Assembly (NCBI RefSeq): GCF_024436055.1
Contig: NZ_JANFNH010000017.1
Span: forward strand, 1 to 64,000
Direction: 5' to 3'
DNA length: 64,000 nt
Origin: Streptantibioticus rubrisoli
GTDB taxonomy: Bacteria > Actinomycetota > Actinomycetes > Streptomycetales > Streptomycetaceae
A program made the translations under genes and the position numbers. How positions within the stretch are numbered: the first letter of the stretch is position 1; each line of letters starts with the position of its first letter. Positions 18,813-64,000 of this stretch are shown piece by piece. A model generated the notes under the pieces. The model saw only the letters and a list, made by a program, of their open reading frames with translations, ran no database searches and was not told where the DNA came from.

Positions 18813-20756
18813 ATGAAGCTTGCCCGTCCCAGAACGCGCGCCGGTCTTGCGGTGGCAGCCACGCTGCCGCTGGTGGCCGGCGCTCTGGCGCTCGGTGTGC
18901 CCACCGCCCAGGCCGACTCCAGCAACCGGCAGGTGCTGACCAACACCAAGCCGCTGTGGGCGACGCCGCGCGCTGACCACGGCACCGCCGCTGGTTCGAC
19001 CAGCGTCAACGCCCGTGTCTACCTGGCCGGTAAGGACGCCCAGGGGCTGGCCGCCTACGCACAGGCGGTCTCCGACCCCTCGTCGCCCTCCTACGGCAAG
19101 TACCTGACGCCGAAGCAGGTGCAGGATCGTTTCGGCGCGACCAAGCAGCAGATAGCCGAGGTCACCGCCTGGCTGAAGAGCTCGGGCCTGACGGTGACCG
19201 GTTCCAACCAGCACTACATCGCGGTGAGCGGCGACAAGGCCGCGGTGGAGAAGGCCTTCAACACGGAGCTGCGCAACTACTCCAAGGACGGCCACCTCTA
19301 CCACGCCCCTGCCCAGGCCGCCTCCGTACCGGCCTCGCTGCACGGCGCGGTGCTCACCATCACCGGTCTGGACAACGCTCCCAAGCAGTCCCAGCACGAC
19401 GAGCTGCCCCCGCCGGAGGCCGTCGCCCGGCAGGCCGGTCCGTTCTCCACGTACTACGGCTCCAACGTCGCCAAGAACCTGCCCAAGGCGTACGGCGGTT
19501 CGGCGCCCTACGTCGTCAAGGGCTACACCGGCAAGCAGCTGCGTGCCGCCTACGGCGCCAAGGGCTACACCGGCAAGGGCGTGACCGTCGCCATCACCGA
19601 CGCGTTCGCCTCGCCGTACATCGCCAAGGACGCGTCCGAGTACGCCAAGCGCAACGGTGACGCGGCCTACAAGGCGGGCCAGTTCACCCAGGTGCTGCCG
19701 AGCGCCTACAACAACATCGACTCCTGCAAGGCCGCCGGTTGGTACGGCGAGGAGACGCTGGACGTGGAGGCGGTGCACGCGGTCGCCCCTGGCGCCAACA
19801 TCGTCTACGTGGGCGCCGCCTCGTGCAACGACCCCGACCTGATGGACAGCCTGAACAAGGTGGTCGACAACCGCCTCGCCGACATCGTCTCCAACTCCTG
19901 GAGCGACGTCGAGGCGAACGAGACCCCGGACGTGGCCGCCGCCTACGACCAGATCTTCCAGCAGGGCGCGGTCGAGGGCATCGGCTTCTACTTCTCCTCC
20001 GGTGACAACGGTGACGAGCTCGCCAACACCGGCACCAAGCAGATCGACACCCCGGCCAACTCCGCCTGGGTGACCGCGGTCGGCGGCACCTCGCTGGCCG
20101 TCGGCAAGGGTGACAAGTACCAGTGGGAGACCGGCTGGGGCACCACCAAGGCCACGCTCTCCGCGGACGGCAAGAACTGGTCCTCGCTGCCCGGTGACTA
20201 CCTCTACGGCGCCGGTGGCGGCACCAGCAAGCTCGTTGCGCAGCCGTTCTACCAGCGCGGCGTCGTCCCGGACGCGCTGAGCAAGCAGAACGGTGCCCCC
20301 GCGCAGCGCGTGGTGCCGGACATCGCGGCGGTCGCCGACCCGACCACCGGCTTCCTGGTCGGCCAGTCGCAGACCTTCCCCGACAAGTCCGTGCGGTACA
20401 GCGAGTACCGCATCGGCGGCACCTCGCTCGCCGCGCCGGTGATCTCCGCGATCCAGGCCCTCGCCCAGCAGGCCCGCGGCGGTGTGCCGATCGGCTTCGC
20501 CAACCCGGCCATCTACGACCGGTTCGGCACCTCGGCGTACCACGACGTGACCGACCACCCGCTCGGCCAGGGCCAGTCCCTCGCCGATGTGCGCGTCGAC
20601 TTCAAGAACGGCTTCGACGCCAAGGGCGGCTACAACGTCTCGCTGCGCACCCTGGGCCACGACAGCTCGCTGAACGCGACGATCGGCTACGACAACGTCA
20701 CCGGCGTCGGCAGCCCCGGCGCGAACTACGTGCTCTCGTACCGTCCGCGCCACTGA
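18813..20756 (+). CDS. Secreted sedolisin-family (S53) serine-carboxyl protease
   Basis: The 647-residue pre-pro-enzyme has a signal peptide ending near PTAQA-DS (about 33-35), a pro-kumamolisin activation domain (about 55-200) and an S53 catalytic domain. The catalytic set is visible: Glu313 and Asp317 in GEETLDVEA, the oxyanion Asp398 in SSGDNG, and Ser538 in GGTSLAAP; calcium-site residues near the C terminus (DNVTGVGSPG) are present. Sedolisins are acid proteases of extracellular protein breakdown. ATG 18813 is chosen because the signal peptide starts there and GGGGG precedes it; an upstream ATG would add a non-signal segment. It stands alone, between a gene-free kilobase and a strong terminator. 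Confidence 0.95.
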   Translation: MKLARPRTRAGLAVAATLPLVAGALALGVPTAQADSSNRQVLTNTKPLWATPRADHGTAAGSTSVNARVYLAGKDAQGLAAYAQAVSDPSSPSYGKYLTPKQVQDRFGATKQQIAEVTAWLKSSGLTVTGSNQHYIAVSGDKAAVEKAFNTELRNYSKDGHLYHAPAQAASVPASLHGAVLTITGLDNAPKQSQHDELPPPEAVARQAGPFSTYYGSNVAKNLPKAYGGSAPYVVKGYTGKQLRAAYGAKGYTGKGVTVAITDAFASPYIAKDASEYAKRNGDAAYKAGQFTQVLPSAYNNIDSCKAAGWYGEETLDVEAVHAVAPGANIVYVGAASCNDPDLMDSLNKVVDNRLADIVSNSWSDVEANETPDVAAAYDQIFQQGAVEGIGFYFSSGDNGDELANTGTKQIDTPANSAWVTAVGGTSLAVGKGDKYQWETGWGTTKATLSADGKNWSSLPGDYLYGAGGGTSKLVAQPFYQRGVVPDALSKQNGAPAQRVVPDIAAVADPTTGFLVGQSQTFPDKSVRYSEYRIGGTSLAAPVISAIQALAQQARGGVPIGFANPAIYDRFGTSAYHDVTDHPLGQGQSLADVRVDFKNGFDAKGGYNVSLRTLGHDSSLNATIGYDNVTGVGSPGANYVLSYRPRH

Positions 20757-20782
20757 GCGACAGCGCACAGGCACACGGCGTA

Positions 20783-20815
20783 GGGCCCGCACCGGCTATC
20801 CCGGTGCGGGCCCTT
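20783..20815 (+). terminator. Terminator after the sedolisin gene
   Basis: GGGCCCGCACCGG (20783-20795) pairs perfectly with CCGGTGCGGGCCC (20801-20813) around CTATC, then TT. Confidence 0.88.
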
Positions 20816-20839
20816 CCCGCGCTGGGGTACCCTGAGCCC

Positions 20840-20878
20840 ATGCGTGCCGTACGCCTTCTGCTTATCCAGCCGCGCTGA
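20840..20878 (+). CDS. Leucine leader peptide of leuS
   Basis: A 12-codon frame, [12 protein letters not shown], has three consecutive leucine codons CTT-CTG-CTT (20855-20863) followed by isoleucine; CTT is rare in DNA this GC-rich. TACCCT at 20828-20833 is 6 nt before the ATG, so the transcript probably starts at the leader's own AUG. The stop lies inside the first hairpin of an attenuator. Such leaders make transcription of the downstream gene depend on charged tRNA-Leu, and the downstream gene here is leucyl-tRNA synthetase. Confidence 0.85.
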
Positions 20879-20926
20879 CGAGGAACCAGTCAGTGCGGCG
20901 ACCCCTCCTGTGCGAGGGGTTTTTTC
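20869..20926 (+). promoter_or_regulatory. leuS transcription attenuator
   Basis: Hairpin 1: GCCGCGCTGAC (20869-20879) pairs with GTCAGTGCGGC (20889-20899), one G-T pair, and overlaps the leader stop codon. Hairpin 2 is an intrinsic terminator: ACCCCTC (20901-20907) with GAGGGGT (20914-20920), then a T6 run to 20925. A ribosome paused on the Leu codons would melt hairpin 1. An alternative antiterminator pairing was not convincingly identified by eye. Confidence 0.75.
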
Positions 20927-21021
20927 GTTTCCGGACCAGGCCGGTCCACGGCCCGGGGCGAAACGATCCGAAGGCAGACCGGGCGTACGCCTGTCATGAC
21001 ATCGATGGAGCTTCGAGGGAC

Positions 21022-23895
<2,874 letters not shown>

Positions 23896-63521: not shown

Positions 63522-64000
<479 letters not shown>

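Follow-up and report, generated by a model that had tools for sequence, protein, structure and literature searches.

A probable leuS attenuator with a leaderless leader peptide in Streptantibioticus rubrisoli and its occurrence across the class

The window, which is the whole stretch of 64,000 nucleotides of Streptantibioticus rubrisoli DNA analysed here (positions 1 to 64,000 of contig NZ_JANFNH010000017.1), contains leuS on the forward strand at 21022..23895. This gene begins with ATG at 21022 and encodes a leucine--tRNA ligase of 957 aa, whose sequence matched the profile TIGR00396 (leuS_bact) with an E value of 2.4e-273 and 909 bits against a cut-off of 548. The parts of its putative control element were read directly from the sequence of the same strand. 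A -10 element, TACCCT (TANNNT), at 20828..20833 is separated by the 6-nt spacer GAGCCC (20834-20839) from a leader ORF of 12 residues plus stop (20840..20878), the ATG of which at 20840 is the predicted +1 of the transcript. The ORF carries three leucine codons in 20855..20863, namely CTT (20855-20857), CTG (20858-20860) and CTT (20861-20863). The last of these (20861..20863) is located 5 nt 5' of a hairpin, P1; on the basis of a class-wide codon count it is proposed as the sensing codon and is referred to below as the ruler codon. P1 (20869..20899) is formed by GCCGCGCTGAC (20869-20879) and GTCAGTGCGGC (20889-20899) with one G-U pair, and the leader stop TGA (20876-20878) lies inside it. An intrinsic terminator at 20902..20925, consisting of CCCCTC (20902-20907), GAGGGG (20914-20919) and T6 (20920-20925), is thus situated between the leader ORF and leuS, as is expected for an attenuator. 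The start of leuS is 96 nt 3' of T6, and the transcript to the terminator would comprise about 80 nt, half of which is leader ORF. The sequence-only reading had listed the TACCCT box, the 6-nt distance, the ATG, the CTT-CTG-CTT run, a hairpin over the stop codon and a terminator with T6, and each was found at the bases it had named.

An inverted repeat, GGGCCCGCACCGG / CCGGTGCGGGCCC, occupies positions 20783-20813 of the window, at the place expected for the -35 region of the promoter. It is probably the end of the upstream gene, which was named protease-like by eye, and its right arm was much alike at the same place in most of the sequences L001-L013.

The element is an ortholog of leuL2 of Streptomyces lividans TK24 and is not new as such, since the same leader was described in S. 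lividans (PMC8079986) and leuS attenuators of the classical type were predicted in 2005 in S. avermitilis and S. coelicolor (PMC1262725). Both here and in the S. lividans leuL2 family, a 12-residue leader with three leucine codons directly precedes leuS and is followed by a hairpin and a uridine stretch (PMC8079986). The two peptides differ in two residues (IQ in leuL2 vs SE here), and the leaderless start was obtained from RNA-seq in S. lividans whereas it is predicted here; otherwise the sections of that report on leuL2 indicate no difference of principle (PMC8079986). The 2005 prediction shares with the present element a leader ORF and a terminator 5' of leuS, and an antiterminator is drawn there; its leuS portion deals with two Streptomyces only and does not mention a leaderless start (PMC1262725). 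For the class-wide spread, the 5-nt spacing and the preference for CTY at the ruler position no report was found in the open-access papers covered, as judged mostly from listings. Spread, ruler spacing and codon rule are what is added here, and the class-wide ruler and codon rule form the part worth testing.

The distance between the -10 element and the start codon was conserved throughout the class. In all 69 readable class-wide leuS leaders a TANNNT was present 6 nt (46 leaders) or 7 nt (23 leaders) 5' of an in-frame ATG or GTG, as compared to 14 of 6900 dinucleotide-shuffled upstream sequences. The sequence of the spacer varied across the class and its length was kept. A degenerate pattern of -10 element and leader with a gap of 4-8 nt occurred in 162 of 297 genomes of the family, and the reversed control pattern occurred in none. 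When 30 family genomes missed by the strict pattern were fetched via leuS, all 30 possessed the leader, 28 being detected by a leader finder and two (L116 and L131) by a covariance model. Because of the empty reversed control, the presence of the leader in these 30 genomes and the spacing in 69 of 69 leaders, chance is excluded as the source of this arrangement. The proposal of the sequence-only reading that the leuS leader mRNA starts at its own AUG is well supported by the constant spacing beside a changing spacer and by the S. lividans ortholog, which is leaderless according to RNA-seq (PMC8079986). In this strain the transcript probably begins at the start codon of the leader, as inferred from promoter spacing and from this ortholog. 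RNA polymerase would start at the A of the leader AUG or no more than one base away from it, and the ribosome would initiate on a bare 5' end. The leaderless form bears on how a 70S ribosome can load quickly enough to decide termination when the RNA is about 80 nt long; the leader of the enterobacterial leu operon has a 5' UTR.

Outside the Streptomycetaceae the leader was also widespread. The finder detected it in 53 of 80 named leuS loci, and among these loci it was present in Kibdelosporangium, Prauserella, Lentzea, Actinopolyspora, Amycolatopsis, Blastococcus and Brachybacterium. The other 27 of the 80 named loci, including those of Mycobacterium, Nocardia, Corynebacterium, Brevibacterium, Actinomycetaceae, Acidimicrobiia and others, showed neither a leader nor a match of the covariance model at an E value of 0.1 or better. 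This model, R1, contains the two hairpins and was built from 47 sequences, each beginning after the last leucine codon. With an E value of 0.01 or better and strict filters it matched 174 of 394 genomes of the class, belonging to 75 of 138 genera. Among the R1 matches listed, 80 regions were fetched, of which 70 were leuS-type leaders and 10 were another leader, so the 174 positive genomes include some leaders that do not belong to leuS. In 69 of the 70 leuS-type copies leuS was directly 3' according to tblastn; the sequence of the remaining copy (L159) stops too soon for this to be judged. One genome (G488) carried two leuS-linked copies (L149 and L150) with different sequences.

The ten other leaders matched by R1 (L198, L199, L200, L206, L208 and L211-L215) contained isoleucine codons, often as ATC ATT ATC, together with a similar hairpin and a terminator, and in each fetched region the match lay about 200 bases in from the upstream end. 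The frame 3' of the leader resembled citramalate synthase, an enzyme of the isoleucine route, in four of five loci inspected. One of these downstream proteins was tested and matched TIGR00977 with an E value of 6.7e-108, as a fragment below the full-length cut-off. No report of an isoleucine-codon leader in front of a citramalate synthase-like gene was found in the open-access papers covered; the sole match was judged off-subject by its title.

Both hairpins were supported by covariation. Alignment A1 comprised 47 of 102 distinct sequences; in it 97.4% of the cells of P1 and the terminator were paired and five pairs had changes on both sides, a number reached by none of 500 shuffles. Slid registers in the same alignment paired at most 56.3% of the cells. 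In the class-wide alignment A2, which was fitted to the model, both-side changes occurred in 12 of 17 pairs (0 of 500 shuffles). A2 has 78 rows, seven of which are antisense matches of P1; when these rows were left out, 1156 of 1197 cells were paired. For the terminator helix in A2, 99.5% of the cells were paired and five of six pairs had both-side changes. The outermost pairs of P1 were nearly invariant: pairs two and three were kept in all 71 sense rows, and pair one varied only by two G-U.

A leucine codon was present at exactly 5 nt 5' of P1 in all 70 class-wide leuS-type copies, as would be expected if the leader ORF carries the codons relevant to the controlled gene. It was CTT in 61 copies, CTC in eight and CTG in one, and the single CTG belonged to a copy at a contig edge (L166). 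As R1 holds nothing upstream of the 5 nt, the ruler codon is not part of the search model. The leader finder used for the 30 family genomes and the 80 named loci required CTT, and codon counts were therefore taken from the 70 class-wide copies alone. The ruler codon was the sixth to ninth codon of the leader, and in one leader (L184) it was a CTT that was the sole leucine codon. The stop codon followed five codons after the ruler in 53 of the 70 copies and elsewhere in 17, with a range of 2 to 11 codons. Compared to its share of 61 in 70 ruler codons, CTT made up only 1.8% of the leucine codons (27 of 1477) when other genes of the window were counted, and 0 of 3082 in 41 Streptomycetaceae leuS genes. 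Peptide length and stop position thus drift between families, whereas the distance from codon to P1 and the CUY identity are fixed, so that stall position and codon could be tested by single substitutions in a clean experimental system.

The element, an ortholog of S. lividans leuL2, is in our view likely to control leuS by ribosome-mediated transcription attenuation with a leaderless leader peptide. If leucyl-tRNA is plentiful, the ribosome would pass CTT-CTG-CTT and leave at the stop codon, P1 would re-form, and the terminator would halt transcription. If leucyl-tRNA is short, the ribosome would be expected to wait at the last CTT, with this codon occupying its A site. A ribosome usually covers about 12-13 nt, counted from the first base of the codon in the A site. 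When stalled on this CTT it would accordingly reach no further into P1 than the fifth base and cover GCCGC, including the invariant pairs. The strand GCGGC, which lies 2 nt 5' of the terminator, would then be freed, and this may lead to more read-through into leuS. The least secure link in this chain is how the freed strand would defeat the terminator; GCGG may form a short helix with CTG(T/C) of the terminator loop, which is unproven.

The term attenuator, which had already been applied to the element by the sequence-only reading, fits its position, the leucine codons and the covarying hairpin and terminator. An antiterminator is the part that covariation did not support: the candidate pairing of GYGCGG with the terminator loop had pairs in 89.7% of the cells, but in none of these pairs had both sides changed, and the result did not exceed that of shuffles. 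It is rejected as proven and retained as a candidate despite the absence of covariation, since the P1 strand is nearly invariant. The GAGG of the P1 loop, an idea obtained by eye, was dropped as an antiterminator strand because the loop sequence changes freely. The folds were examined with 171 distinct of 179 sequences, of which 169 were parsed, 162 were used for loop shuffling and 166 for pause spacing. Shuffling of the terminator loop weakened the antiterminator fold slightly (-4.56 for the real loop vs -4.07), the real value being lower in 95 of 162 cases. When folds were masked for a ribosome on CTT, the terminator still won in most of those listed. The lack of covariation in the candidate antiterminator would also suit a different role of P1, namely that it is chiefly a pause hairpin which holds RNA polymerase back for the ribosome; termination would then depend on how early the ribosome melts P1, without a true antiterminator. 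The consensus of pause sites is G-10 Y-1 G+1. In 113 of the 166 parsed sequences the first YG of the terminator loop was 10 nt from the base of P1, in 26 it was 11 nt away, and a G was present at -10 in 111. These values fit the layout of a hairpin pause and this consensus. However, the spacing may simply follow from a conserved terminator stem of fixed length beside P1, and a large share of the set is from Streptomyces. We regard such a pause-based decision as possible, but rather unlikely.

It is improbable that the terminator is constitutive and leuS controlled otherwise, with a leader peptide that does not sense leucine. A response of leuS to leucine was not found in the literature covered, as far as its accessible text goes, and in S. 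coelicolor codon mutations in the leaders of ilvB and leuA had effects other than those of classical attenuation (as told in PMC1262725), which also counts against the word attenuator in its strict sense. However, a constitutive terminator would not need a leucine codon at a fixed 5 nt from P1, and the presence of this codon in 70 of 70 copies, outside the search model, argues against it. A tRNA-binding T-box, the regulator of most aminoacyl-tRNA synthetase genes in Firmicutes (PMC1262725), has next to no chance of being the control of leuS here. Rfam gave seven matches up to an E value of 5 in 20600-21100, all far below their gathering scores and none of them a T-box, and the transcript to the terminator would be about 80 nt, half filled by an ORF, which argues against one.

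The putative ribosome-mediated attenuator of leuS resembles two further leaders. The leuA leader of Streptomyces (LEU element or leuL1) likewise has a leader ORF whose leucine run ends in CTT; unlike the leuS leader, it was reported without a typical terminator (PMC8079986), and a pseudoknot has been proposed (PMC1262725). In the pseudoknot of a LEU element the leucine run would pair with the Shine-Dalgarno site. The window contains this leuA leader as well, at 63522-63569, with a peptide identical to S. lividans leuL1 (PMC8079986); its leucine run ends in CTT and TAGGCT is found 9 nt 5' of its ATG. The leader of the enterobacterial leu operon senses by leucine codons that are rare in the genome, as proposed here for leuS, and the change of CUA to CUG was reported to lower its sensitivity (PMC1183508). 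It differs in controlling biosynthesis instead of leuS and in using CUA, whereas the codons here are CUU or CUC (PMC1183508).

The use of leucine codons in leuS itself was also determined. In 12 Streptomycetaceae genomes CTC/(CTC+CTG) was 17/732 in leuS, compared to 303/803 in valS and 229/586 in rpoB (2% vs 38-39%); the value for leuA was 33/435. Among the window genes counted, leuS had the lowest share of CTC. In nine genomes with the leader, CTY/(CTY+CTG) was 85/652 in leuS vs 227/602 in valS, and in 17 genomes without the leader it was 270/1116 vs 380/1095. The assumption that codon avoidance follows the leader holds only in part. Some Nocardia leuS genes avoid CTC and CTT as strongly as those of Streptomyces; at five loci where no leader was found (L079, L080, L084, L085 and L098) the CTC/CTT share was 0.01-0.11 in leuS vs 0.23-0.42 in valS. 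Conversely, in Actinopolyspora and Brachybacterium equifaecis the leader is present and avoidance in leuS is weak.

The tRNA-Leu with the anticodon GAG reads CUY. Tentatively, and at a little less than even confidence, we suggest that the class-wide actinobacterial leuS switch senses this one isoacceptor: a single CUU or CUC, 5 nt from a hairpin with a near-invariant base, would report the charging of the CUY-reading tRNA, and leuS, which in many genomes uses almost exclusively CUG, would be translatable when that tRNA runs empty. The selective-charging theory has been presented with the enterobacterial leu leader as a case (PMC1183508). Avoidance of CTC and CTT in leuS is what this theory would call for in genes expressed while leucine is short, if it may be extended to coding regions. 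High-GC bacteria would then offer, in this avoidance, a natural example of selective charging (PMC1183508).
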